Positions 5,186-55,501 of a stretch of DNA of 64,000 nucleotides are shown here, in pieces. Source of the stretch: Ilyonectria destructans. Taxonomy: Eukaryota > Ascomycota > Sordariomycetes > Hypocreales > Nectriaceae. The position numbers were made by a program, and so were the translations under genes. The stretch's first letter is position 1. Every line of letters begins with the position of its first letter. A model generated the notes under the pieces. It was not told the DNA's origin. It ran no database searches and was given only the letters and a program-made list of their open reading frames with translations. The stretch is taken from the NCBI GenBank assembly GCA_020740775.1, contig JAHEWK010000036.1:62001-126000 (forward strand), in the 5' to 3' direction.

Positions 5186-8100
5186 TTAGTATGCCTGAGG
5201 CTTCTGTCCCATGTCAAGCCTCCCCGTTGCAATGGCAAATTTGATCGTCGCCCGTACTGCCTGCATGTCTGGCGCCCATTTGTCACCGTCAGACGCTGCC
5301 TTTCCTCCCAAGAAGAACGAGAGGTTCCCCATCTTTGTTTGTGAGCATTTCAGCATGCCTTCCCGTTGTATTGTCCACTTTGTGCATCTGAATAGAAAAT
5401 GCGCAACTGTCTCGGATGCTTGACCACACTCGCACATATCCGATTCCACTGCACCGATGTTGTGCAGAAAGCTGTTCAGTCTTGCCATTTCCGTGCGGAG
5501 CTGGACCAGCACCTCTGCTTCTTTCCTCTTCAGCAGGTCATATAGAGTACGTGTATGCTTGCCAGGTAGTGCCGTGTCTATCGTCTTCGAGTATTTCCCG
5601 ACTCTTCCCGGCGGTGTCGTTGATTGCCGCTGCTTGATTATGGCTAGTCTTATCCTCGTGGATCTTGCTTGATACGGTGGCATATTTGGTCTGCATTCAC
5701 TTTCAGTGGCCTTCCGGGCTGCTGCTTTGGCTTTTGGTCCTAGTGCGAAGTCTTCGTCTCCTGCTGGAACCCACATCATCTGGAGAGAGTTGCCCTCGTC
5801 TTCAAGACGGTTGACATGCTTGTAGATTTGCCGAATGATCTGTTGACCGGACTGTTGTCGCGGCCGCCGTATGGCTTCTAGTGCGGAGCGGTTGCTCGTC
5901 ATGACGGTGATATTCCGTCGACGCAGTCCGAATGGCATGCATCTCAGCGCCATCTCTATAGCTCCCAGCTCGGCTATGTAGGGGTTCAGCTCCTCCTTCG
6001 ACCCGAGAGTGATGGAGTAGCTGGCCACTACCTCGTCGGTACTGTTGAGGGACGTATCTTGTACGACACCTCCCATGCCTACCATGCCCCCTCTCTGGGA
6101 GGAGCTGGTGGCAATGAGTATGCCTTCCACCCTATTTGCAGCTTCCCTTGCCCTCTCCCGGTTAGGGTCGCACGACATTAGTGTGCGGCCTCTCCATGGC
6201 GGTAGCGCGTACTCCTGAATGATCTCCATTCGTTCAGTGGTTGTCTCCCCTTGTGCCTGAGCAATCCTCTGCATCGGCGACACGAATCGGCGACACGCTT
6301 TCACTTTCAGTGTGGCCAACAGGTGTGTCCTGGGAAGGGTCCGGAGGTTGATCCAAAACCTTGTTGCTGCTTTCGCATGCCGTTCTTGCACCGGTTGAAT
6401 GCTAGCTTCGGCCTCTGCCACCGCTGTTGCCACGGTCCGGAAAGCTCCCGTGATCGCCTGTGCTCCGACCATCTGTGCCTTGTCCAACCAAGCTGCTTCT
6501 CTAACGCCACATGAGTGCGCCCACACGCTGGACGCATAGTCCATGGTGGGAGCTACTGTTGCTACGAACAGTTGTCTCGCCGTCCGCGGTGACAGCATCT
6601 TCAGTCTTCTCAGGCACATAGCGGCCGAGAGCCCCTTTGTGGCAGCTCTGGCTATGTGTTCCTTGTACCGTAGTTTCGCGTCCATGACCACTCCCAGGAT
6701 CTTGGCGCTCGTCTTGGGCTTGACTACTTTTCCTTTGATCATGAGCGGTGTGTCGCTGGTACGCGCGGCGTTTCGCGTGAAATGCACGATGGACGTTTTG
6801 TCTCCTTCGAACGTCGCACCGCTCCGTCTTTCCCAGCCCAGTGCTTCGTCTATAATTGATTGGATGCCGGTTCGGTTTTCCTCTGCTGTTGGTCCCACCA
6901 CCCAGGCTGAGTAGTCATCCACAAATGCCATCGAACCACCTCTTGCGTTGATTCTTCTCTGCACCAAATCTGCATTGAAGAACAGGAACAACACCGGCGA
7001 CAGCGGTGATCCTTGCGGGAGACCTGCCTGTGGCAACTCCCGTAGCTGTGACGTGTGCCCATTTACCACCATGGTGGCCGTTCGTCCAGAGCAGAAGGCG
7101 TCAATCCATCTCACCAGTCCACCAGGTATGCCTCTCGCCTTCAGCCTCTCCAGTAGTCGCTCTTTGAACACTCCGTTGTAAGCGCCTTTGACGTCGAAAC
7201 TGATCAGACTGAGCACCCTGCCGGCCCTCCATGCCTTATAGATCTGCTCCTGCAGCAGTATCAGTGCTTGTTCGGCTGACCTTCGCTTCCTTGCCCCGAA
7301 GTGGTTTGCGGGCAGCAGTCCATAGCTCTCCACAACATAGGATATCCGCTCTGCAACGACTGCCTCGAGTATCTTGCCCAGTGTTGACAGCAGCGATATC
7401 GGTCTCCATGCCTTGGCCACTGTGTAGTCTCCCTTGTCTGCTTTCTTTAGCGGGATGATCTTCGCACTCCTCCACTGGTGGGGTACCACACCATCCCTGA
7501 GGGATGTGTCGAAGAGGTGCAAGACACGGTATCTAACCACTGGCCAAAGCTGATTCCACACCATTGCTGGCAGACCATCGTCTCCAGGCGCTTTCCAAGG
7601 TTTCACTGCTAGCACTTTTTCTTCAACTTCCTCCATGGTCAGGTCTGGCATGTGCACTTCTCTCCGTTGCGATCGCTCGCCTTCATCGTCAATCCTAGCC
7701 GGCAACGGCGGGAAGAACGTGCTGAGCAGCTCCTCTGCCTGCTCCACCCTATCTTCCGTGGTGGAGCCGTCTTGTCTCTTCAAAGGGGTTACCCTGTCGT
7801 CCATGATGTCCTTTCCAGGTTTCAAGTATTTGGCCGCCTTCCATATGTTGACATCTTCTGCCAGGAAATCGTCCCAGTGCAGTGTCTTCTGTTTCCGGAT
7901 GGCATCATGGTACTCCTTGGATGCTTCCTTGGCCCGTCTTTCCAGGTCGGGCCTCACCTGACCTGCTCGCCGCTGTGCCCTGGCCTGATTCCGCCAGAAC
8001 GTATACACCCGCCGAAGTCTTGTCAAATCCTTCCTCCACCAGCGCTTCGCGTACGGTACTGGTTGTGCTCGGGGCGTCAGCTCGTGGATCGCCTCGAGGA

Positions 8101-8965
8101 CGATCCTCATTAACTGGTCTGTCTGTTCCTGCACGCCGACAGTCCAGGGAAGCTCTCGGAGATTGTCCTCCACCCTGGTTCTGATTGTTGTCCATGGTGC
8201 ATTCTTGAACAACAGTCTTTCCGCGGCAATCCGATTAGGCCTCGCGAGATCGAACGTCGTTTGGATCGCCCGGTGGTCCGATCCGTGTTCTGTCGGGTGT
8301 ATGGAGCACGTCACCATTTCGTCTGCCACTTCCGCCGTCGCCAGCACCAGGTCGATTGTGCTTTCCTTGTCGGGGCCTTGCCATGTCTTTGTGCCTCTCG
8401 GGAGAAGGCTGCAAAGACCGTGTTCGTTCATGAGGTCGATGATCGATTCGGCCTCGCTTTGCCTTGCCAATGGCACGTCGTCTCCTCCCCATAGCCGGTC
8501 GTGCTGGTTAAAATCTCCTGCCAGTAAGACGTCCACCACCATCCCTGTCCTGCTCCTGAGGTCGAGGATCACCTGGTGCAGGGTATGGCATGTGTGTCGA
8601 AGAGTCTGAGGCTTGCCCCCCGGCACGTACACTGACACGACCAACACTATTCGGTCCGGAAGTCGTATGGTTGCTGCTGTCAAGTCCGGGGACTGTATTG
8701 GTACTTGCTCGGCCTCCAAATCCCTATTCACCCACAACATGCTCCGGATTGGCCATCTGCCATCTCTCCAAATTGTGGGAACCATTTTGATCCATTTGGG
8801 GTGTCCCATGGGGACTGTGAGAAGTTTGCCGTCAATTTTCCGTGCCTGTGGTTCTTGGATCGCTATAACTGCAAAATCTTGGAGTCGCTTATCGTTCATT
8901 AGGCTTTCATGTACCATATCCTGTTTTCTCACATTCAGTTGGATTACCTGAAACATCCTACTCAT
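5186..8965 (-). CDS. LINE ORF2: AP-endonuclease / reverse transcriptase / RNase H-like
   Basis: From the ATG at 8965 the protein has 1259 residues; a longer open frame starts at 9277 but overlaps ORF1. The order is: an exonuclease-endonuclease-phosphatase domain (IQLNVRKQ, LLAGDFNQHDRLWGG, SDHRAI); a reverse transcriptase with KAWRPISLL, PQGSPLSPVLF and the catalytic FVDD box at about 6915-6930; an RNase H-like fold (IAELGAIEMAL); and a C-terminal Cys/His finger (CECGQ...H....C, about 5435-5380). It makes cDNA by target-primed reverse transcription in the nucleus. The ATG sits eight bases inside the end of ORF1 (ATGAGTAG), which suggests termination-reinitiation. The RNase H first Asp and the TDS-type Asp appear replaced (TSN). 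Confidence 0.85.
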   Translation of the reverse strand: MSRMFQVIQLNVRKQDMVHESLMNDKRLQDFAVIAIQEPQARKIDGKLLTVPMGHPKWIKMVPTIWRDGRWPIRSMLWVNRDLEAEQVPIQSPDLTAATIRLPDRIVLVVSVYVPGGKPQTLRHTCHTLHQVILDLRSRTGMVVDVLLAGDFNQHDRLWGGDDVPLARQSEAESIIDLMNEHGLCSLLPRGTKTWQGPDKESTIDLVLATAEVADEMVTCSIHPTEHGSDHRAIQTTFDLARPNRIAAERLLFKNAPWTTIRTRVEDNLRELPWTVGVQEQTDQLMRIVLEAIHELTPRAQPVPYAKRWWRKDLTRLRRVYTFWRNQARAQRRAGQVRPDLERRAKEASKEYHDAIRKQKTLHWDDFLAEDVNIWKAAKYLKPGKDIMDDRVTPLKRQDGSTTEDRVEQAEELLSTFFPPLPARIDDEGERSQRREVHMPDLTMEEVEEKVLAVKPWKAPGDDGLPAMVWNQLWPVVRYRVLHLFDTSLRDGVVPHQWRSAKIIPLKKADKGDYTVAKAWRPISLLSTLGKILEAVVAERISYVVESYGLLPANHFGARKRRSAEQALILLQEQIYKAWRAGRVLSLISFDVKGAYNGVFKERLLERLKARGIPGGLVRWIDAFCSGRTATMVVNGHTSQLRELPQAGLPQGSPLSPVLFLFFNADLVQRRINARGGSMAFVDDYSAWVVGPTAEENRTGIQSIIDEALGWERRSGATFEGDKTSIVHFTRNAARTSDTPLMIKGKVVKPKTSAKILGVVMDAKLRYKEHIARAATKGLSAAMCLRRLKMLSPRTARQLFVATVAPTMDYASSVWAHSCGVREAAWLDKAQMVGAQAITGAFRTVATAVAEAEASIQPVQERHAKAATRFWINLRTLPRTHLLATLKVKACRRFVSPMQRIAQAQGETTTERMEIIQEYALPPWRGRTLMSCDPNRERAREAANRVEGILIATSSSQRGGMVGMGGVVQDTSLNSTDEVVASYSITLGSKEELNPYIAELGAIEMALRCMPFGLRRRNITVMTSNRSALEAIRRPRQQSGQQIIRQIYKHVNRLEDEGNSLQMMWVPAGDEDFALGPKAKAAARKATESECRPNMPPYQARSTRIRLAIIKQRQSTTPPGRVGKYSKTIDTALPGKHTRTLYDLLKRKEAEVLVQLRTEMARLNSFLHNIGAVESDMCECGQASETVAHFLFRCTKWTIQREGMLKCSQTKMGNLSFFLGGKAASDGDKWAPDMQAVRATIKFAIATGRLDMGQKPQAY

Positions 8966-10268
8966 GCCGGGTAGGATAGAGTTTCGGGCAGCTTCTGCTG
9001 AACGACTCGTGCGGTCCACCACAGGGCAAACACTTGGGTATCTGCGTCTGGCACTCGCTATGATGATGGCCTTCGGCGGCGCATCTCGCACATACCCGAT
9101 TCTTGCTGCAGGAGAAGGCCTTATGGCCAAGCTCCTGGCAGGTGTAGCATTGTATCGGTCCGGTTCTCCGCTCGAACGCGTTGGTGTATGCCGATTCACC
9201 GGCTGCAAGGAAGTAGCGTTCCTGTAGGAGTCTCCTAGCATCGCTGTTTTTGGTAAGGTATGCCACCATGGATCCATACGCCTTTGCGCTGTCCTTTCGG
9301 CTCAACCAGGCGATCTTTGCAATTTGGATTTCGTTCTCTTGGCTCAAGGCTTCCATTGCTCCAGGGAGGACCTTGCCTTCCTGGTCAAGGACGGCGGTAC
9401 GGTTCACATTGTCAACTTTGACGGGGTACAGTTGGTCTCGGAGCACCCTCGTGCCTGGGGCCTTCTTGGCCTCGATGATCATCTTGATCCTCTTCAATTC
9501 TTCCTCATTCCTACCGATGATCCTCGGGCGCTTGGTATTTCGTCCATCTCTGGTTACCGCAACACATCGCCAGCTAGGTTGGTCGCTGGATGCTCGCATT
9601 TCCTGTTCAATGGTCCTGCGAATGACTGCTGGTGCAGTATCTCCAATATGATCCTCGGGCACCCTAGATGTGTCTACTGTGCAGAACATCGGTTCCGGGG
9701 TTGCTGATCGGACCGTGGATGGGCTTTGAGTGGTGATACTAGCAGGCGTCATTCTAGCAGCATCTGCATATGTCTGACCAGGCGACCTTGCTGCATGAGC
9801 ATTGTTTAAGGTGTCCAGTTGTAGCCGGATCTGCTCCAACTCGCTGCAAACCTGGGTAAGCTGCTCTCGGACTTGAGATAATTCTTGTGCCATCTGGGCC
9901 GTGGTCCTAGTGACTTCTTCAGCCATGCGGTCGCTAAGTTTTGTAAACTCGAGCTGAAACTCTGCCTTCATCGTTGCCATTCTCTTATTGAAGTCTTGTT
10001 CTAGGAGTAGTTCCAGACCCTGGATTGCCTCCGTCATGCTGCCAGCTGCCTTAGGCGTGGTCCTTTTCTTAGTTCTGGTGTGACTCAGAGCTTCCTCACT
10101 GCTCTCCTCCTCCTGCCATTCCATATCACCATTTTGCTGTTCGGATTCCAATGCCCTCGTCGTTCTGGTCCTTTTACGCAGGGGACGATGATATCCCCCG
10201 CCCGGAACATCCGGTTCGCCTTCCATGACGACAATGACGTCTGAAGCGGGGTTCGCAACACAAGACAT
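8958..10268 (-). CDS. LINE ORF1: gag-like nucleic-acid-binding protein
   Basis: The protein has 436 residues. The N-terminal third is charged and rich in RTR and KKR patches. Residues about 85-170 form a long heptad-like helix (repeated E/Q/L, QLTQVCSELEQIRLQL), probably a coiled coil for multimerisation. The C-terminal 60 residues hold three zinc knuckles: CYTCQELGHKAFSC, CARCAAEGHHHSEC and CLPCGGPHESFSRSC. This matches ORF1 of Tad and related fungal LINEs, which coats the element RNA. Its TAG stop overlaps the ORF2 ATG. No internal stop or frameshift is present. Confidence 0.8.
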   Translation of the reverse strand: MSCVANPASDVIVVMEGEPDVPGGGYHRPLRKRTRTTRALESEQQNGDMEWQEEESSEEALSHTRTKKRTTPKAAGSMTEAIQGLELLLEQDFNKRMATMKAEFQLEFTKLSDRMAEEVTRTTAQMAQELSQVREQLTQVCSELEQIRLQLDTLNNAHAARSPGQTYADAARMTPASITTQSPSTVRSATPEPMFCTVDTSRVPEDHIGDTAPAVIRRTIEQEMRASSDQPSWRCVAVTRDGRNTKRPRIIGRNEEELKRIKMIIEAKKAPGTRVLRDQLYPVKVDNVNRTAVLDQEGKVLPGAMEALSQENEIQIAKIAWLSRKDSAKAYGSMVAYLTKNSDARRLLQERYFLAAGESAYTNAFERRTGPIQCYTCQELGHKAFSCSKNRVCARCAAEGHHHSECQTQIPKCLPCGGPHESFSRSCPKLYPTRHE

Positions 10269-13597: not shown

Positions 13598-16217
13598 GTG
13601 CCTCTGACTTCCGGAACCGGGTTCGTAGCCGAATTCCTCTTCTTGATCATGGCGTCGACCTTCTTGCGGACAATGGGGTCTTTGAGCTGTTGGTTGACCT
13701 TGAATTCGATGTCTTTATCGGCCTTCCAGTTAGCTGGTCTGATAGACGGAACTAAATAGGGACATTCGGCATAGAATTAACGGTCCCCACAGAGGCATTT
13801 TGGTGCCCTTCGTGTCTTCGACTTTCTGGCTGTATCAGGGTCGTCAGAGGTCCATTGGAAGCTAGAAAAGGTACCTTTTGCAGCCGGCTGTGGAGGCTTT
13901 TCCTATTCAAACAGTTCACTGATAGCAAAGCCGTCCGGCACCTTAGTCTTCCAGTTAGTGATGCAATTTATTGTACACGTATGTACGTACGTACTGTATT
14001 TTAGCCATAGTACGTACGTACAATGGGGTTGTACATACAAATACGTACCATACAAATTTCCCCCTTCTATTTTAGGCAATACTGGTAGTAGGGTTCTCAC
14101 GGTCCTGTTCTTCTGCCATTCTAGCCTCAAACCTCTGATTCCACCTCAGTGCCAACCCTCAATATATCACCCGTCGACTGTAATACACCCTCCCACTCAA
14201 AATCCCCATTGGTAGAGGCCATCACGCCATCCATCCAGACCTTCTTGCCCTGCGCATTCACAAATAACTCGAGATATGAATCTTCGAGTTCTAGCCAGTC
14301 CTTCTCCTCAAGATCCGTCCAGCGCTTTTTATGGGCGTACTTCTGATCCTTAAGGCGATCTAATACGCGGTCGTTCATAAAAATGAAGGCCTGCATATCA
14401 GCGTGCATGGGCGTAAGCCGATTCCGAGCTTTCGTATGTATGAAACTAATAGCAGAGAAACTTCGTTCTGAGGGTACAGAGTTCGCAAGCGTGTTCATTA
14501 CCTTCACAGCTACTCTAGCCAGCATCGAGCCCTGGTCGAGGAGGCACTGCCACGCCATTGCTGGCTTGAAGCCATCGTCGTATACAGCGCTGTGCTTATT
14601 AAATAAGCCGTCTGGGCCGCCTGTACGCATTCGGAAGTGTGTGAATTCGGAAAGGGCACGGTGATATTCGTTGTCGTTTTTCAGCTGTTTCTGCAAATAC
14701 TCTTGTACGCGCGCAAAGACGCTAGGCGGCAGTTTCGAATTTGGGCCTGTTGTATCAGGCCGGAGGGCATCGGCGATCCAATGTATATCGTACGTTTGCT
14801 TATCAAGCCGGGCTTCGAATATAGCGTCAATATCGTCCCACGGAATATCAGGAAACTGATCAGCCTCTCTCATCTCAACCCATTTGCTTTTGATTTGCAG
14901 CCAGCGATTTACAACGTGTGCGATTCCCGCCCCATCAGCCTCGGAAGCGTGTTGAAATTCGTTCACGGGCTTTAGCACAGCGATCGCAGCCTCGAGTTTT
15001 AGCCAGAAGCTGTTGTCTTTGATGATTCGAACCGCTTCGGGTAGGAGAACGGGGCAATCTTGAGATCGCAGCTCATCTCGTACATCTTTTCGAATAGACC
15101 AGTCTCTGGCAGGGTCTCGAGAACGGAGGAGGGAGAAGAAAGAATTGTACTGAGAACCCCAGCGTGTAATTACACTATTCGGAACGAGCGAGTTGGTACA
15201 GTGATTTCTCAGTCACAGTTGGCGATTTACCGGTACCTTCTGATCAGCGCGCGAGTTACTCCGTTCCACCTCGTGCGCTGGCACATTCTCAATCTTTGCA
15301 ATTGTAATTTAGACCGTGAGAAGAACGTGAGAAGGGTGCTGACGTTATTAAAGAGATCCTCAAAGAATGGAAGAAGAAGGATATCTTTAATTAGAAGCTG
15401 AAGGCCATGAGAATCGCATAGAGAGAAGTTGATATGTGAGAGTTCTGGGAATTTCCCAAGCAAGTCGTGTACAGAGCGCATCGTGTTTTCGGTATCTGTA
15501 CAGATGGAATTGATTCTGGAGAGATCACCGCCGCACAGTTGCTGCATTTCTCCCCATATCAACTTCACCCAATTCTCCGCTGTGTGCTGTTCTTCTCCCG
15601 TGTCAAACGTTTTCCAGTAGAAGGCTGGGCCGTCTGGTAGTTGTACCGAGATATTAACGATTCTGTGGCCCGACACATTATCGGAAGCGTCAAATATGAT
15701 GTTGAACCATTCTGAGCTGGTAATGCGTTTGAAAACCTCATGATAGAGTTCCTGATAGAAATCGGGCAGAATTCTCGTGATAACGGCGCGGCTAGGAGGC
15801 TTCCAGCCAGGCTTAATGCGAGTGAAGAAATAACGCCAACGGCGGCTCTCGAAGAGGCTGAAGGGGCGGCCGCCGGCGATTACATACGGTCGCACATTAC
15901 CACATGGGTGACATAACCCTTTTGGGAAGCCTCAACCATGTGGAAATACTTAGTAATTTTGTGCCCCCTTGCAAGACTACAGTACCGCACACTATCCGGA
16001 AGGTATCTCTTCATTTAGATGGCATCTCCACCAGGGAATATGTCGTGATAATTCCTGGTGACGCGTCACAATTCTTCCACTCACACATCCACACCAGCGT
16101 CAATATCCAGCCCATCGCCACCCCATAGCTGTTATGGGCTATCCCCATCCATTCCCTAAGTAAGCTCGGGTCTATCCATCATGAGATTGTGCGACTGACC
16201 TTGGCTTGTACGTAGAT

Positions 16218-17467
16218 ATGCCCGATCACGTCCTATCGCAGACATGTCCCGATGTTCCGAAGACCGTGGCCCCTAAATCGTACCAACGGAGCCACGATTT
16301 CATCCGCGATAGCTACCCAGGGTCGAATCTGTGTCCATATTGCGGGAGACGTTGGCCCACGAGTATCTCCATCCTCGACAGCTCGCCAGTCCCGTTTCGA
16401 GACGTTGAGACAGCTTCCACCTCCTCCGCTATACAGTCTATCGACCTAACAGCCTCTGATCATTCCACGCCCTCGCAGACGATCTTCACCGGCTCTGGAG
16501 ACGGCCCTGGCCGTATCCTCGCAGCATCGCGGCCCTCCGCCGTGTATCGAGATGCCAAACTTACCCAGAGTCGGATCGCGAGGGGCATGAGGGCGAGCTC
16601 GTCGCAACTCAGTGAGGCTGTGGCTAAACAGAGCCAAAACAAGAGCAGACGAAAGATCTCGATGCGCCTCACCGTCTTCCTTGCGAGGCCTGACCCATGG
16701 GAAATGCTAGACGAAGACGAGGAGCCCCAGTGGTCTTTGGCTAGAGAGCTGCTGAAGGTCGCTTTGCGCCCTTTCGTCGACGAGGAACCATCTTTACCTG
16801 TCCACTTCTAGTTCGACAGCATCTTCTTCCCTCAGTTCAAGGACAAGCCTGCCCTCTCTTCTGTTCTTCAATTCGACAAGAGACTCGTTCAGAACGCCCA
16901 TATTAAAGAGGGTATCACGGAGCTGAGCGACCTCGACTGGGAGAGACAGACAGTCGCAGAGCTTTTCGGCGAGGACGCCCTTCCCGTTTCAGTAAAACAG
17001 AGGGCAGATATCTCCTGTTCCTTGTTTTCTATGAGCTATTGCCTCCTCGACCACAAGTCGCGGCCCCTCGTCATGTCAAGACACCGAGGTCAGCTGTAAA
17101 GCCGTTCACAGAGGAGAAGGGAATTAAGAAAGAGTTAGTCAAGGCCGAGGTGAAGGTACAGCCAGCCTTGTTAATCAGGAGCGAGTTCAACTTGCCCTCC
17201 TTGAGCCCCTCTCTGAGCCCAGTTCTACCTCCTTCGAGAGCTAGCGCAGAAGACCACATCGAGGTTATTACTAGCGACGTGGACGAGACCCGCGCGGGTC
17301 AGAAACGAGCTCGAGACTCTATAAGCTCAGCACTCTCGGTAGAGGCAGAGGATAAGGAGCTCTCGGCTGGCCCTGCTTTCACTGCCTATGGTCCCGCTGC
17401 TGGAACCCGAGGAGTTGATACGAGGAGGCCAAGTAGTCGGCATCCTCTTAAACAGACGAGGAAATAG
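16218..17467 (+). pseudogene. Companion ORF of the DDE element, unknown function, broken
   Basis: From the ATG at 16218 the frame gives 197 residues. It has a CPYCGRRWP zinc-ribbon-like knuckle near residue 40, Ser/Thr-rich linkers and a basic patch (KSRRKISMRL), and stops with TAG at 16809. The same frame stays open beyond it (FFPQFKDKPALSSVLQFDKR) to about 17096. A different frame from about 17039 to 17467 is Pro/Ser/Lys-rich. So the gene has one in-frame stop and one probable frameshift, or unrecognised introns. It faces the transposase and lies fully inside the TIRs. I do not recognise a family; a DNA-binding accessory role is only a guess from the Cys pair and basic patch. Confidence 0.5.
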
Positions 17468-17570
17468 TAGTTACTCTAGCTCAAGGTGACCCAGGTCCCC
17501 CATCAGCTCGTCCACACTATTGATAATATCGCCAGGTAGCTCAGTTCCGGAGAGGCTATTGTTAATAGGC

Positions 17571-19169
17571 TTAAGGTAGTTCTGCTTGAGGAGCTGAAGC
17601 TAAAGCATTGTCAGCTAGCTTTTGAGTGCGATGGAGTACTTTTTTACGTATGAATCTCTCTTTCCCTCCAACTGGACTCTCTGGGATGCTCAGCACCGGA
17701 CTTGCCCCGCAGTCGAGATGAACCTGAATCTTGTCTCTAAGCCGTAAGTAGATTGCGAGGTGTGGTCGCTTATGATCAAGCTCCCCATCTAGCTGACCAC
17801 CGAACTGAAGATCCCGGAGCTGTTGATCACACCAGTCTGTTGTTGTTGGGTCAAGAAGATCGTCTATATCGATAGAATCGACAGCGGCCATCATCTGGGC
17901 AAGCCCATCTCGAGCCGCAGGCCCTAGATGGACTGCCCAGTTCTCCACTTCGCTTGTATTATACAGATCCATTGGGATCCCGGCGACGAGATGCTCCCTA
18001 TTCTTCTGTGGCCGGATGCGATGGCCGTTCCACATCTCCGTGAAGTCCGCAACCTCTTGACGGATCATGGGTCCATAGAGAGCATACACCGCGATCTGGT
18101 GAGCAAGACGGTTTGGTTGGAAGAGGCCGCTATCAATCAGCTCGTGTGAGAACGCGATCCAGCGCTGACTGACACCTTTAAGTAGCTTTTCCCACCAAGA
18201 CTCGATCCGTTGGTTCGATGTGCTTGGGCCCCAGATATGACAGGAGCTCAGTCTCGCTCCCTGCCTATGGACTCGTTGGTCGTTATCATCGGTGGTATAC
18301 CGAAACTCTGTCTGATCAAGGTCGGCGAGAATCGCCTGGGCTCCGGCCCAAAGAGGAGTCTCGATACCATGATCCGAGCGGGTGAAAAGGGGCCGGACCC
18401 CTGAGTACGACACGGTCCGTAGAAACTGTTTGAGTGAACTCAGCGCAGTCATGTTCCCCCTGCCGACATATATCCAGATGATGGCTCTCGAGTACGTGTC
18501 GATACAGGCGTAGATAGAGAAGCCGAAGTTCTTGAGCTTCTCGTACCCATCGAGAGACCACATGAAGTTAGGCCCAGGAACCTGGAAGTTCTTCCGGTGC
18601 TTCCAATCAGCAAGGCGTCTTTGTTCGGCCCGCTTCTTCCACTCTGGGTTCGTTTGGTACTCGCGATATAAGGTATTCTGGCCGACAAGGACGCCGGCAC
18701 GGATGCGGACGTAGTGGTATAGATACCCCCTGCCAAATCCTCTGATGCTTGAAGATTGACGGTCGTCTTGGAAGAGGAACTCTCTTGCTTTTTGAATAGC
18801 ATCCTGTCGTTCAGTCAGATCTCGGAAGCGCCGCTTCATGCCATGCTTCAGACGATACTCCTGTACAGTCCGCTCGGAGATCTCGATGCCGCGTCGCTTG
18901 AGATCACGGACGATGGAAGTGTCGCTATATCCGTATCGGTAGAAGTAGCCTTTGATCAGCTCGACGAAGGTGTTGGTATCAATCTTTGAGTGAAGGGGGG
19001 AGTACTCCTGTGCACCCCATTCCGCTAACCTCCTTTTCAGGGTTCTGGCGTCGAGTACGTGCCCATCGTCGCGGAGATGGGCACATATAGTGTCAATGGA
19101 TAGTCCTTCTCGCCGCTGCTCGAGGATCCAGTCCTTGACGCCCTCCAAGTCTTTACGGGGCCTCGGCAT
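17571..19169 (-). CDS. Integrase-core DDE transposase
   Basis: The protein has 532 residues from an ATG, with no stop. Residues 1-55 form a helix-turn-helix-like region (LSIDTICAHLRDDG, TLKRRLAEWG), and 70-115 a second one (SDTSIVRDLKRRGIEISERT). The catalytic core has Asp207 in WSLDGYEKL, Asp266 in RSDHGIET and Glu323 in NQRIESWW: a D-D-E triad with spacings of 59 and 57, in the style of rve integrases. It should catalyse cut-and-paste of the surrounding 3.6-kb element. It converges with the companion ORF, 104 bp apart. The intact frame, near-identical TIRs and perfect duplication suggest a recent insertion. Confidence 0.85.
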   Translation of the reverse strand: MPRPRKDLEGVKDWILEQRREGLSIDTICAHLRDDGHVLDARTLKRRLAEWGAQEYSPLHSKIDTNTFVELIKGYFYRYGYSDTSIVRDLKRRGIEISERTVQEYRLKHGMKRRFRDLTERQDAIQKAREFLFQDDRQSSSIRGFGRGYLYHYVRIRAGVLVGQNTLYREYQTNPEWKKRAEQRRLADWKHRKNFQVPGPNFMWSLDGYEKLKNFGFSIYACIDTYSRAIIWIYVGRGNMTALSSLKQFLRTVSYSGVRPLFTRSDHGIETPLWAGAQAILADLDQTEFRYTTDDNDQRVHRQGARLSSCHIWGPSTSNQRIESWWEKLLKGVSQRWIAFSHELIDSGLFQPNRLAHQIAVYALYGPMIRQEVADFTEMWNGHRIRPQKNREHLVAGIPMDLYNTSEVENWAVHLGPAARDGLAQMMAAVDSIDIDDLLDPTTTDWCDQQLRDLQFGGQLDGELDHKRPHLAIYLRLRDKIQVHLDCGASPVLSIPESPVGGKERFIRKKVLHRTQKLADNALASAPQAELP

Positions 19170-20414
19170 TGTACGAGACGCAGACCAGGGGTTCGAGATC
19201 GTGGTAGAGGTCGGAATTCATACCTCCTTCCAAGGCTTCCAGCTGCAATATCCCCCTCTGAACCGGCATTATCGGAGCTTCGGCGCCGATGGAATGGCAT
19301 CAGCACCGCTTGGTATGGCATCAGCTTTGCTACATTGAAAACAGTGCGCTATCATATCAATACTGTAGCCCCATATAAAAACGCCGAAAGCCTATGTGCG
19401 AAATAGCTCCAGTCATTTTCGTACATGGTTTTGTCACCCATGTGGTAATGTGCGACCGTAATTACAGCAGCGGCGGCATCATAGGCGAAACTGCGACTCT
19501 CGTCTTGCGAGATATGCTGAATTCCGACCTCGGTTATCTTCTTTTGTATAGCTTCAGAATATGAGGGAAGATAGCCAGCGTTATCTTGAGCTTGACTCTC
19601 TTGTCGCTGCTTGGCTTGCCATTTCTCACACGCAGCGAGATGCTCTTTCGGCCTCCCAACAGAGGTCGCTGCAAAATCCTTCTGGCAGTGACGGCATCTG
19701 TACCGCTTGCTTTTCTTGGAGTTAGAGCGGCCGAGATCGATAAACTGTCGCCAAACGAAGGCAGCGTTAGCATTGGTGGGCGCCATCTTTTTGGCGATAC
19801 CTTCAATTGGGAGAGAATGGTAGAGTGCGTTGAGCTGCTAAGCGAGCAGAGTTTTTGTACAGCCCCGTATTTGTACGATGTGACCCACAAATTCCCTTAT
19901 TAGGAATATCATGGACCCTCATTGTACGTACGTAGTACGTGTACGTACTTTTTCTTTTTGTACGTATGTATGTACAACCGTGTTGTACGAAAAGTACAAC
20001 ATCACTACTTCCAGTCCGGGTCTTGAGACCTTGATAGGTCCCGCTTTCCCAATAGACTGAAAATGAGGGATTGATCTGACTGACTGCATCTAGGAAATCG
20101 AGGGTTGGCCGGATTTCCTTAGTATCAGGGAGATCTAGGCCCTTGGCTTCTGTTAGGACCTTCCGCCAGCTAGTGACCCAGGTCTCTAGTTTGGTCCGGC
20201 TAGGGCCCTTGAGGATAGTCTTCATCCGGGATAGGACTTCTCTTTCTCTGTCATAGCTGGTGGGTTCGACCCGTGCTCTCAGCAGGATTAGCTGCGTAGC
20301 CACATCCTTGGGCCTCACCGCACTCTTAGGCTGCAACCCGACATTCAAGCCTTGCCACCTTCCGCAGCCAAAGACCCATTGGATAAAGTGTCTAATTAGA
20401 CACTTTTCTCGCTA

Positions 20415-22606
20415 CCATCCAGTACCCACCTACGGCTAACACCCACCTACTGCTAAGCAAAATAAAATTTCCCCATACAAAATCCAATTTTTCAACCTCA
20501 CGGGACAAAATCACCAAAAATGATAAAAATAAAATTGTTTCTGGAATTCAACTAGAAATTGAATTAATTTTCATATTGTCTCGGTCTTTTTACCTCGCGG
20601 CCTGTGCGTGTGCGTACAACGGGTAAGTCTTCCACCTCCGAATTCGAGCTCTCGTCTTCTTCAAATCCTGCCACCTCAATCGCATCCTCAATAGTCTCCG
20701 ACACTTCAGTGACCTGAATTGGCTCGGAAATAGTTTCGCCAGCCGCTAGAGCTTCGGCTAGTGTCATGAACTTCTTGTTAGGATTGGGTATAGCCCTTCT
20801 CTTCTTGCCTCTGCTCAACCGGCTAACTTCCTCCTCCAGACTGGCTATTCTTGCCATCAGGGAGACTATCTTTGACTCCTGGGCTTCAAACCATTTAGAT
20901 ATCACAGAATACCGCCTTCTGGTTGATGGGGTCTTGTCTTTACTAAAATCTCTGACGTGACGGCTGGTCTTTGGTGTGTCATCGGAGTTGAGTTGCACGT
21001 CTCTCAGACCGTTCGGTTCAGGGGTGGTTTCCTTATCTGGTTGGATTTCTGGATGCATGAGCGCTTTCCGTCGTGAGATTGGCCAATTTCTAGTCACTCT
21101 CCATCCAGCGAGTATATTCTTCTTAGTCATACCCACTTCCCTGGCTTTGGCATAAGCCTTGATGAAGTTGACCTTATCTACTGGTGCGGAATCGGTTAGG
21201 GTTGCCAGCTTTTGGCGCTCCCTGCGATAAGCAGCCTTGGAAGCATTGAAAATACCATTGTCTAGTGGCTGGAGACCATAGGAGCAATAAGACGGCAGAT
21301 AACAACAATACACGTTGTTTAAAAAACAGCTAGCCATCCACTCATCCTGCTTCCAACTTAGCGAGATTTGTGGTTCAGACCAGTGACATACTTACAGATA
21401 CGTAACTCCCATGGCCATCCAAGATGATAAGCCTGGCATCGGACTCATCTGCTGGCTGCGTTTGAGGTAGATAGACGTCCTTGAGGCACTCAATTGCGAT
21501 ATGGTTATCCGTCCAGCCGTTCTCAGAAGTGATGTAATGCCAGTCGGCTATATTCTTAAACTCCTTGATAAACCATTGCTGCTGAAGTTCCTTGCCTTTA
21601 AAAATGATACCCGGTTTCAGAAGACGGCCATCTGCAGTCACAGCTTCGATGAAGCTAGTCCAAGCACGGGACTGAGAGCCTTTAAGGAAGGCCTTCTTCT
21701 TGGGGTCGCTACTGCCAACAACTAAGGAGTCCAAGCCTAGAATTGGAATGGATCAGTAAGTCTTATGATCAAAGATAATAAATACGCACCAAATCCAGCC
21801 ATAATACCGCCCTCGTCAACATTAACTGTGTTCTCAGGCTTGATCCAGCCATACTCCCTCTCGCGGATATCAAAGTACCAATTGACGGCCATTGGAGTGA
21901 AAGAATTGAACCTTGAGGCCTCCTGGCGTTTCCCTATCTTCGTCTTGATGGCTGGATTACGTTTCATGAATCTGGCTATCCAATGCACGCCGATGACGCT
22001 TTGCTGGCCTTGTTGCTGTAAGAGGGCAGTTACGGTAGCGCGAACTTGACTGTGAGAAAGAGCATAGCCCAGGGCCTCTTGTCGAAGTATCCAGGTGACT
22101 AGTCTGGCCTCCTGAGACTTGGATAGCAACTGGGCAGGCTGGGTGACTTCGAATTTAGACGGGAGGCCTCGTAATCGTGCAGAAAGAATTGTCTGAGGGA
22201 TGCCATGTTTCTGGGCGGCTCGGTTCTGCGACAGGCCGTTATCTGTGATATCGAATATGGCTTCAATGACTTCACTCTCTGTATAAGACGTTCGAGGCAT
22301 TTTGAGGCGATTGCTGAAGGTTGGTGTGGGCGGAGTCTTTTATTAAGTTTTACGGAGGCCAACTCATGAATGAGCTATTTGCAGAAATTTTACATAGGTG
22401 ATGTGCAATCATACCACCTCCGTAACGGAAAAAGTATAATCATGATATGAAACAACGTGAAACTCTCAATAATACACAGCTTGTTTTATGTAAATAACTC
22501 CAATATTGGCTATATACGGTGTAAGTGAAATTACGCATTTTGTATGGGAGAATTTTATTTTTGCTTAGCAGTAGGTGGGTGTTAGCCGTAGGTGGGTACT
22601 GGATGG
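20415..22606 (-). mobile_element. Pogo/Fot-type Tc1-mariner transposon
   Basis: The element is 2192 bp with inverted repeats of about 50 bp starting CCATCCAGTACCCACCTACG at both ends (one A-run length difference near position 47). It is flanked by TA on each side (20413-20414, 22607-22608), the target duplication of the superfamily. It encodes one spliced transposase on the minus strand with no disruption. It lies at the junction of the copia gag fragment and a hAT 5' fragment. Confidence 0.9.
20564..22300 (-). CDS. Pogo/Fot-type transposase, three exons, intact
   Basis: The exons are 22300-21790, 21736-21396 and 21346-20564. The introns are 53 nt (GTGCGT...CTAG) and 49 nt (GTAAGT...GCAG). 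They give an uninterrupted 544-residue protein. The N-terminus has a psq-type helix-turn-helix (LSQNRAAQKHGIPQTILSAR) and a CENP-B-like second DNA-binding domain. The catalytic acidic residues lie in NVDEGGIMAGFG, LIILDGHGSY and LQPLDNGIFNASK, the D-D-D arrangement of Fot/pogo. The C-terminus has a short coiled coil (SLMARIASLEEEVSRL) and a basic tail. It moves the surrounding element. Its coding integrity contrasts with the dead hAT and copia copies nearby. Confidence 0.9.
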
Positions 22607-53268: not shown

Positions 53269-55501
53269 ATGCCACGTCAACCACATACCCACCCTGAGCA
53301 GGATCTTAGGCCTCGAAGATCCCGAAGTCGAAGCCGAAGCCCGAGCCCCAGCGATCAATTGATCCCTTCGAAGCGCCGTCGCGTCGAGCGCGAAGCCGAC
53401 CTACCGAGTCCATCGCACCTTTCGAGTCCACCGCGCCCTTCGAGTCGTTCGACAATAGCAAGCAGCATCTCTCCATTCTACGGTATTGGAGACGATAATG
53501 CCCTCGATAATCTCTTCGCATCATACCCGCAAAGGTTCTCTGATGTCCCCAGACCACATGGCCAGCGAGGCATGAATGAGTCTACCTGGTCGATGCGTAA
53601 CGATCACGAGATTTATTTCAACACCGACCTCATCCTGGTATCATCATCTGTTCGTCGAGTAACAGAACTGATTCCGGGTGAATACCCATATTCATTATCA
53701 TCTTCTTCATCCCCTACACCCAGCTCTCCACCATCTTCAACATCTTCAATACAAGGACCCCCTCAAGCAACTAAAGCTGAGTTTCAGTCTGCTCTAAAGC
53801 TTGTACAAGAGGTCATTGGAAAGGTCGGCGCCTTACACTCGACCTCGCCCGTCAATATGGGGCTGGTCGCCACTTAGCCCAGGAGCTTATGAACCCCCTC
53901 CTCCATACTCTCCGCCACGAAATCCACAATCAACATCAAGTCCTCCTGTGACTACACCTCCCAATATATCTATACAATCTTCGATCGAGCCAGAGCCAGA
54001 GCCAATACCCAACCCCCTTATTCCAGGTGATGCTGCCCCAGATGCAGAGACTCTCTTCAACACAATCAACACCTTTGCTAAGGAGCATGGATTTGGCATT
54101 GTTCGATATAATGGATATCAATATCAGGGTCGGATAATCAGATATACATTTCAATGTGATCGATTTGGACAACCAAGATATACCAGAGGAGTTGGATTGC
54201 GACAGCGGAAGTCTCGAAAATGCGGCTGTAAATGGAAGGTTATTGCTGAAGCCCTAGAAGAGGGGAAGTGGTTCTTACGAAAGCACCCAAATATAGAACA
54301 CAGCGAACACAACCATGGACCCAGTCTCGCCCCATCAGCACACCCTACCCATCGACGACTGACTTCATCTATCAAGGCCACTATTGAAGCTACAAGTCGA
54401 CGGGTTGGTGTGCGTGCTCGCGATGTACAAGCAGTTGTCAAAGATCAGCACCCAGATACCAGTTTCACTCAAAAGGATATCTACAATGCCCGGGTCACGA
54501 TCAATCGCGATAAGTTGAATGGGTATACCTCTGCTGCAGCACTTATCAAGCTTTTCGATGAGAGTGGAATCCTCTACTTGGTAAAGTGGGCAGATGATGA
54601 GCCAAATCGAGTTGTTGGCTTAATATGGACCTTCCCTTATTGCCTTCAGATGTGGAAGCGCTTTCCAGAGGTCATCAGCTTCGATAATACATACAATACC
54701 AATCGATTCAAGCTGCCTCTTTTCCAAGCAACAGGGCAAACATGTTTGGGGACTGTCTTCAATGCTGCGTTTGGTCTGATTGATAATGAGAGAAGGGAAG
54801 GATTCCAATTCCTTGCAGAGGGCTTTCGACAGCTGATTGATGAGCAATCTATCAAAGACCCAACTATTATCATCACAGACTTTGATAAGGCAATGAAGGC
54901 AGCACTAGACGATCAGTTTCCCAAGTCACAGCAGCAATTGTGCATCCACCATATCAACTCAAATGTCCTTCTTAAGTCAAAGCAGAAATGGCTTAAGACT
55001 TCTGAACCTACTAGCAGCTCAGATATCAGCGATGTTGAAAAGTCCCCTCAGTATGAAACTCAACTCAGCTTAAATGATCGAGCACTGGTTGACAATTCAA
55101 CAACCGACAAGATTCCTCATACCTATCGGGGTATCTTCCAGATGTGGAAGGTTGTACTGTTTGCTGATGATGAGGCAGCTCATGAGGAGGCTTGGAAAAT
55201 GCTATGCAAGGAGTTTGATGATCAACGACCAACCTTGCGTTACTTATATGGTACTTACATGCCTGTAAGAGCTCAATGGGCCCGCTGCTTCATCAAGACA
55301 TACCGTAATTTCGGTATTCATGTCACATCTGGCACGGAAGCAAGCAATAATAATGTCAAAAGCTATTTGCGTAATGGCATGAGCAACCTCTTTCGTCTTG
55401 TTGAGGCAATGCAGGATATGATAAGGGATCAAGAGCTGATACGTGAAAAACCAGTCTTGGGCCTGGTGCTTAAGACTGGCATTATATGTAACATCACGTG
55501 A
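53269..55501 (+). pseudogene. MULE transposase, 5' part, frameshifted and truncated
   Basis: An ATG at 53269 gives a Pro/Ser/Arg-rich N-terminal region (to 53877). The reading frame then shifts near 53860 to a second frame that runs to 55501. The second part has a FAR1-type zinc domain (FQCDRFG...KCGCKW...EHSEHNH). It also has a MULE DDE core with VISFDNTYNTNRFKLPLF (Asp), IIITDFDKAMKAAL (Asp), QQLCIHHINSNV, and TSGTEASNNNVKSYL (Glu). The normal C-terminus with the SWIM finger is absent; the frame ends after DQELIREKP. The left-edge fragment at 1-820 contains exactly that missing C-terminal region from a related element. Confidence 0.8.

Follow-up and report, generated by a model that had tools for sequence, protein, structure and literature searches.

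The window analysed here is a 64,000-nt stretch of an Ilyonectria destructans contig in which a transposon lies within a hAT transposase gene. The following features were located in it, where "burst" denotes a set of 15 near-identical copies of the element found elsewhere in the genome.

14127–15884, minus strand: hAT transposase gene, 3' part, with DUF659 and hAT dimerisation domains and a probable 62-nt intron
15879–15884, unstranded: left target site duplication (TSD) ATTACA, from the sequence and empty hAT sites
15885–19460, minus strand (that of the transposase gene): IS3EU-type transposon, 3576 bp
15885–15918, plus strand: left terminal inverted repeat (TIR), 34 nt, starting TACGG, with a single mismatch to the right arm
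15964–17663, unstranded: mosaic segment, 54 substitutions and 1 gap relative to the burst majority
16218–17467, plus strand: ORF2, 416 codons in burst copies
17471–17599, minus strand: transposase exon 2, a C-terminal tail of 42 codons followed by the stop
17600–17651, minus strand: probable transposase intron, 52 nt, based on the burst-copy donor GT and protein P0003
17652–19169, minus strand: transposase exon 1, 506 codons with D207, D266 and E323, matching PF24764
19427–19460, minus strand: right TIR, 34 nt, ending CCGTA
19461–19466, unstranded: right TSD ATTACA, from the sequence and empty hAT sites
19467–19786, minus strand: hAT transposase gene, 5' part, start codon at 19786

The boundaries given in the original prediction were reproduced, with 33 of 34 positions of the TIRs paired (97% complementary) and the direct duplication ATTACA read on both sides. 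The hAT frame closes once the flanks are joined, that is, when the insert and one duplication are ignored. Exactly 2016 nt resulted from two of the 17 listed one-intron models (62-nt introns, in one case GTACCG..AATAG at 15236–15175) and from none of 119 two-intron models with introns of 45–90 nt. The predicted length of 2016 nt was therefore retained, while the three predicted exons become two, the first of which is split by the insert. The uninterrupted hAT site was also found elsewhere in the genome, where 12 of 15 matches span the joined site over at least 375 bp.

The window copy contains an open frame of 532 codons (17571–19169, minus strand) in which the catalytic residues D207, D266 and E323 were found at the predicted spacings of 59 and 57 positions. 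In an alignment of 35 sequences D207 and D266 are invariant and E323 is present in at least 90%. The proposed search against transposase profiles matched PF24764 (E 3.2e-28). The claim that this 532-residue transposase is intact was not borne out, as the frame runs into a probable intron, the donor of which has changed from GT to AT in the window copy. The donor is GT in 15/15 burst copies and AT in the window copy, its twin L022 and the older copy L043. If spliced at this GT..AG intron, the burst-copy transposase would have 548 residues, and the F. solani protein P0003 is this 548-residue spliced form. The C-terminal tail encoded by exon 2 carries the pattern LL..N...L.G that is common to relatives. 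In-silico splicing covered 17 of the 30 copies, and the exon and intron coordinates in the window follow arithmetically from the 1518/52/129-nt split of family copies; an initial 46-nt intron (550 residues) was replaced by the 52-nt model after other copies had been read. The 532-residue product is thus probably an intron read-through, and an alternative GT, located 12 nt farther downstream than the lost donor, could still provide an in-frame transposase in the window copy. Fold searches returned TnsB, IstA and RSV integrase as the best matches, at E 1.4e-4 and weaker and with low whole-length TM-scores. The N-terminus is all-helical in the predicted structure and is probably DNA-binding. The transposase, with its integrase-type RNase H core, would probably bind the 34-bp TACGG ends, cut at the TA termini and join the ends to the target with a 6-bp stagger, repair of which would generate the 6-bp duplication.

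A second gene, ORF2, faces the transposase gene from the plus strand and was absent from the original prediction. It runs at full length without a stop in 19 of 80 family matches; in the window copy it is broken by an in-frame TAG (16809–16811) and a 1-nt deletion near 16976. Within the genome, ORF2 dN/dS was 0.24–0.57 in ten older copies and 0.40 in the window copy, values that are confounded by post-insertion decay and RIP-like change, and coding columns were not less variable than noncoding columns among family copies of the same genome. Selection was for this reason evaluated mainly against the diverged copy L079, where dN was 0.28 and dS 1.38, while shifted frames in the same comparison gave dN above dS. 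Judged from these substitution patterns, ORF2 is conserved and under purifying selection. No Pfam family was assigned to it, the sole match up to E 5 being DUF6527 at 0.06, and PDB sequences gave nothing better than E 1.3; a structure model was worthless (pLDDT 33). An alpha-kinase identity was rejected on these Pfam and PDB results. A whole-genome scan with PF02816 (alpha-kinase) returned a single match, at C74:1381071, roughly 1.4 Mb from the listed family remnant on C74, and none at ORF2. ORF2 would encode an accessory protein that is conserved and possibly nuclear.

The genome search that had been proposed yielded both other copies and empty sites, with the same boundaries and the same 6-bp duplication. 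Absence of copies, another duplication length and other boundaries had been named as grounds for rejection, and none of them was encountered in this genome; other fungi were covered as proteins only. In total, 32 of 118 genome matches to the element exceed 3.3 kb, and 15 copies differ from the majority sequence (3,577 bp) by 0–3 substitutions each, so that a recent multiplication of the family is well supported by sequence comparison. Both ends were read in 30 copies, 29 of which were aligned (L048 was omitted as too long). All of these ends start with TACGG; the end search used a 29-base motif with at most 3 substitutions, which strongly different ends would escape. An exact 6-bp TSD was found in 15 of the 30 copies and the other half are without one. 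With a single match at 4 bp and zero at 3, 5 and 7–10 bp, the 6-bp length is not due to chance. Five further two-ended elements were found, two with a TSD (TTTGGG for the 235-bp derivative L051 and TTCTTC for a mutated copy on C4) and three without (C8, C29:39195 and C30:45654).

The window copy lies outside the set of 15 burst copies. Compared to these its left half carries 54 substitutions and its right half 0, and in the mosaic segment L022 alone, out of the other 28 aligned copies, agrees with it. This twin, located on C25, matches the window copy without a difference over all 3576 bp, so the mosaic must have been duplicated as a unit at least once, either by transposition or by conversion along its full length. 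L022 has no TSD and is therefore not unequivocal evidence for a second insertion. A further copy, L038, is a mosaic in reverse, with a burst-like left half and 18 substitutions in its right half, demonstrating that recombination between copies occurs in the family. The window copy is best read as a recombinant whose parents were one burst copy and one older copy. It has lost ORF2 and the normal transposase splice donor, and its insertion into the hAT gene was most likely carried out by proteins from intact copies. The prediction of a recent, possibly mobile element is well borne out for the family but doubtful for the window copy. It is also conceivable, at somewhat less than even odds, that the window copy inserted intact, that its left half was gene-converted in place from an older copy and that it was never mobilised while defective. 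Conversion in place would likewise leave TIRs and TSD perfect, and L038 attests to exchange between copies, but the whole-length identity of L022 requires that the mosaic itself was copied, and none of the 29 aligned copies qualifies as donor of the left half.

Three near-identical copies, at C15:53776, C18:137783 and C30:325830, have permuted flanks, and the hexamers of their target sites (CCGTTA, GGCCGT and GGAGGG) link up into a closed three-way cycle. Uninterrupted versions of two of these ancestral sites were found elsewhere. L025 and L032 show 0 differences from the majority and L037 a single base, hence only reads longer than 3.6 kb distinguish them. The permuted flanks reflect either ectopic recombination or misassembly. 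Under recombination, near-identical copies would serve as crossover substrates by which flanks were swapped among the three contigs. That the assembler connected unique flanks wrongly across these near-identical 3.6-kb elements is a real possibility that we rate slightly below an even chance: the near-identity of the copies would permit it, and a mis-resolved repeat would produce just such a closed cycle, with none of the six flanks lost. Against this, 10 of 17 young copies are attached to their own TSD, and the assembly comprises 74 contigs totalling 71.7 Mb, which suggests long reads. Of the seven young copies without a TSD, three are accounted for; the other four are L022, L023, L027 and L028. 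With the joined flanks of L022, L023 and L027 as queries, left-flank paralogues stopped at the element boundary (1, 3 and 6 matches, respectively, covering query positions 1–250 with own loci excluded) and were not followed by the right flank in the matches listed, so these loci look rearranged or deleted. No exchange partner for the three was present among the 89 element ends read. Flank overlaps of L030 with L028 and of L034 with L032 proved to be chance once 80-bp flanks were read, and single hexamer matches were left uncounted (L030/L034, two complete copies with complementary hexamers; L040/L043; L033/L053; L055/L058).

Taken together, the window element is best explained as belonging to a two-gene family of IS3EU-type DNA transposons that multiplied recently, with the window copy a recombinant and with crossovers between near-identical copies; we put this reading at a probability of roughly 85%. 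Both element proteins share 91–95% identity between Nectriaceae (Hypocreales) and Verticillium dahliae (Glomerellales). In the excerpts available from a Verticillium transposable element survey, Tc1/mariner, hAT and Mutator DNA elements are described for VdLs.17 and an IS3EU-like family is not among them (PMC3441728). It would be a bold and rather improbable extension that a compact two-gene IS3EU lineage with a conserved, hitherto unnamed accessory protein (ORF2) crossed fungal orders before its burst in Ilyonectria, and that the identical copies there cause genuine multi-way exchanges among contigs that are mostly small and bring defective mosaics along. Many natural copies of the family are identical, 3.6 kb long and to all appearance complete, so that the role of ORF2 is open to testing, and the mosaic copies make trans-mobilisation testable. 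The closed three-way hexamer exchange is a simple signature of transposon-mediated translocation, for which any fungal genome assembled from long reads could be screened.

Assignment to IS3EU rests on published features and profile matches rather than on a tree. Passages describing IS3EU give TA..TA ends, in rust families of the form TAYGG..CCRTA, and 6-bp TSDs (PMC10045372, PMC12730594). The element terminates in TACGG..CCGTA, shares the 6-bp TSD and encodes an IS3-related, integrase-type D-D-E transposase, in agreement with the predicted likeness to IS3EU. The IS3-family model scored best among NCBIfam models (E 4.6e-8) and IS481 gave E 4.4e-5, both far under the curated cut-offs; the bacterial IS3 and IS481 elements resemble the element in their integrase-like DDE core and differ in having TG..CA ends (PMC10045372, in part). 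A Ginger-type or LTR-retrotransposon-derived integrase element is very improbable, since the integrase-like core, the weak match to Pfam rve (E 0.008) and retroviral integrases among the fold matches are outweighed by the published IS3EU ends and TSD length and by IS3 as the top NCBIfam model. GingerRoot, as described in sections of PMC10045372, shares 6-bp TSDs and mostly TA..TA ends and forms one lineage with IS3EU in the tree given there, but was described from a clubmoss.

The prediction of a poorly described fungal family was partly right, as fungal IS3EU elements are in print, in the portions available of reports on Styx (PMC10853768) and on rust and truffle elements (PMC12730594); the element is a further member of a known, little-studied superfamily with fungal members. 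By the same partial account, the rust set has 6-bp TSDs, TIRs above 30 bp and TAYGG..CCRTA ends, and rust and truffle elements carry a second gene opposite the transposase (PMC12730594). There the opposing gene codes for an alpha-kinase and is separated from the transposase by a TET/JBP gene, while ORF2 of the window family has no Pfam family and no alpha-kinase lies opposite its transposase. Styx of Zymoseptoria is an active IS3EU element and, among the reports consulted, the one shown to move, according to the extracts of PMC10853768 on which the comparison by description is based. At about 7.9 kb it is larger than the two-gene element of 3577 bp here, and of its four coding sequences two are confined to Zymoseptoria. 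The resemblance extends to 36-bp TIRs (34 bp here), 6-bp TSDs, an integrase-like transposase and a recent burst of near-identical copies, and Styx has been tied to a chromosomal translocation and to the movement of copies whose integrase gene is defective (PMC10853768).

The assembly of Ilyonectria destructans that was searched comprises 71.7 Mb in 74 contigs and places the window at C30:62001-126000. The following mobile elements were recognised within the window.

5186-10268: LINE-like retrotransposon with a 1363-aa frame for endonuclease and reverse transcriptase and, upstream of it, a zinc-knuckle frame
14012-19933: possible extent of a hAT element; 8-bp ACGTACGT on each side, imperfect inverted ends (10/14), tentative as the surroundings are rich in ACGT repeats
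15885-19460, transposase on the minus strand: 3,576-bp element; 34-nt terminal inverted repeats, 97% complementary
20564-21337: DDE_1 transposase fragment adjoining the hAT element (PF03184, E 2e-9)
53801-55501: MULE transposase carrying a FAR1 domain; 566-codon open frame

The element at 15885-19460 is bordered on both sides by ATTACA, and its 532-codon open frame on the minus strand matched the integrase core domain PF24764 in a profile search (E 3.2e-28). Residues D207, D266 and E323 are spaced by 59 and 57 positions; across an alignment of 35 sequences both aspartates were invariant and the glutamate was present in at least 90%. The AlphaFold2 model of the transposase had a mean pLDDT of 81, and Foldseek ranked TnsB, IstA and Rous sarcoma virus integrase highest (E 1.4e-4 to 3.8e-4); whole-length TM-scores were low, at most 0.28 in the top rows.

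The insertion interrupts a hAT transposase gene, for which profile search returned DUF659 (E 3.6e-9) and the hAT dimerisation region (E 3.7e-4, marginally under its cut-off). Joining the flanks at a single ATTACA made the hAT frame continuous over the junction, and the length of exactly 2016 nt given in the original prediction was obtained in 2 of 17 one-intron models of the joined gene. Searching the genome with the joined 400-bp site (junction at 200) returned 15 rows. Twelve cover at least 375 bp at 90–100% identity (four matches are given as 100%, a rounded figure), another spans 1-225 and thus crosses the junction, and the remaining two are the window's own halves. These matches are paralogous empty sites and therefore demonstrate the insertion, together with its 6-bp duplication, directly. 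The hAT family is itself multi-copy, the uninterrupted site being found at C24:13457, C19:344450 and ten other places (90–100%), and given these sites it may have been recently active too.

A genome search for the family gave at least 118 rows, including at least 32 single matches longer than 3.3 kb. An exact 6-bp duplication was found in 15 of the 30 copies with both ends read (L021-L050); a 4-bp match was seen in one copy, and matches of 3, 5 or 7–10 bp in none. Fifteen copies (L023-L037, the burst copies) carry 0–3 substitutions each relative to the majority sequence over 3,577 bp; this IS3EU-type family has therefore multiplied recently. Among older copies the number of substitutions rises to 136, and one on contig C4 has 49 in-frame stops within the transposase that look like repeat-induced point mutation. 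An internal-deletion derivative of 235 bp (L051, C16:744061-744295) has its own duplication, TTTGGG. Most of the long matches (27/32) lie on contigs of up to about 1.1 Mb, within C13-C38 of the host assembly G000; the 16 contigs bearing them total roughly 9.4 of the 71.7 Mb, counting match-bearing contigs only. Small contigs rich in family copies are possibly accessory chromosomes. A second, distant transposase group (~35% identity) occurs at C22:100713, C37:30552 and elsewhere.

Facing the transposase gene, the plus strand of burst copy L030 holds an uninterrupted 427-codon frame, ORF2, with 416 codons from the first ATG. It is full length and stop-free in 19 of 80 genome match rows, and diverged versions (36–58% identity) adjoin diverged transposases on C14, C25, C26 and C60. 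Over 154 codons, comparison with L079, the version on C14, gave dN 0.28 and dS 1.38, while dN exceeded dS in both shifted frames. These sequence comparisons show ORF2 to be a real protein under purifying selection. Pfam profile search of ORF2 gave no family match and structure prediction no usable model. Its sequence includes basic stretches and, close to the N-terminus, a CPYCG motif; IDLT and IEVI, followed by acidic residues, look like possible SUMO-interacting motifs. A search of limited sensitivity found 16 relatives, the named ones from Fusarium, Ilyonectria, Dactylonectria and Verticillium dahliae. The window copy lacks an intact ORF2: a stop interrupts it at 16809, and 1 nt is deleted near 16976.

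Splicing of the transposase gene is probable: from all 15 burst copies a 52-nt GTACGT..CTGAC..TTTAG segment can be removed in silico, giving 548 residues with a C-terminus (LQLLEQNYLEPINNSLSG..) nearly that of the Fusarium solani relative P0003, likewise of 548 residues; its LL..N...L.G pattern is common to several more distant relatives. AT stands at the donor position in the window copy, in L022 (its twin on C25) and in the older copy L043. The 532-residue frame, originally predicted to be an intact transposase, is thus probably intron read-through, and loss of transposase function in the window copy appears likely. A GT 12 nt downstream of the lost donor could serve as an in-frame donor.

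The window copy is a mosaic. Positions 15885-17663 differ from the burst majority by 54 substitutions and one gap, whereas 17664-19460 match 13 of the 15 burst copies without a substitution and differ by one from each of L036 and L037. L022 equals the window copy over the entire element; besides this twin, no source of the left half was found among 29 aligned copies, the closest others having at least 51 differing sites. L043, with its AT donor, possibly hints at the lineage behind that half. L038 is a mosaic in reverse, its left half being majority sequence and its right half carrying 18 substitutions. In the simplest account, a burst copy would have recombined with an unseen older copy and the mosaic would then have been copied whole; the main rival is that the mosaic arose in place by gene conversion. 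As both genes of the window copy are damaged, it would probably have been moved by proteins of intact copies. Comparable movement of defective copies is reported for Styx, an active IS3EU element of Zymoseptoria (PMC10853768).

Ten of the 17 young copies (the burst copies, the window copy and its twin) have their own duplication, and three of the other seven are linked in a closed cycle: L025 has on its left the hexamer that L032 has on its right (CCGTTA), L032 has on its left the right hexamer of L037 (GGCCGT), and L037 has on its left the right hexamer of L025 (GGAGGG). By chance, about 0.01 matches are expected over the 42 ordered pairs of seven copies, assuming equal base use. The joined CCGTTA and GGCCGT sites were both found uninterrupted elsewhere in the genome; one search gave 14 of 41 rows of at least 285 bp across the junction (88–100% identity), the other 6 of 39 of at least 286 bp (94–100%), and shorter rows also cross it. 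Being single copy, and with its hexamer in a GA-rich, low-complexity stretch, the GGAGGG site is the weakest of the three. The cycle and the uninterrupted sites indicate that the flanks of these near-identical copies, on C15, C30 and C18, were formerly paired otherwise. Ectopic recombination would yield such flanks; misassembly through near-identical repeats gives the same pattern. Left-flank paralogues of L022, L023 and L027 stop at the element boundary.

Both genes have relatives in V. dahliae (Glomerellales), the host being a member of the Nectriaceae. The V. dahliae transposase P0005 showed 95% local identity over 69% of the query and 91.4% over 384 aligned columns, whereas an Ilyonectria sp. 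paralogue (P0008) reached only 76%. P0005 lies on a contig of 2.3 kb, short enough that contamination is possible; the V. dahliae ORF2 relative P0042 (91% over 41% of the query) belongs to a cluster whose longest contig is 2.58 Mb. Taken together, these identities point to possible horizontal transfer between the Nectriaceae and V. dahliae lineages.

Fungal IS3EU elements have been described in rusts and truffle (PMC12730594), in Zymoseptoria (PMC10853768) and in Colletotrichum lupini, and are mentioned in papers on Ganoderma, Phlebopus and Metschnikowia. No description of the 3.6-kb two-gene family was found in the portions consulted of the IS3EU/Fusarium and Ilyonectria transposable-element literature. 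Within the family, ORF2 may be a gene not described before. The family itself is apparently new and belongs to the known IS3EU kind.
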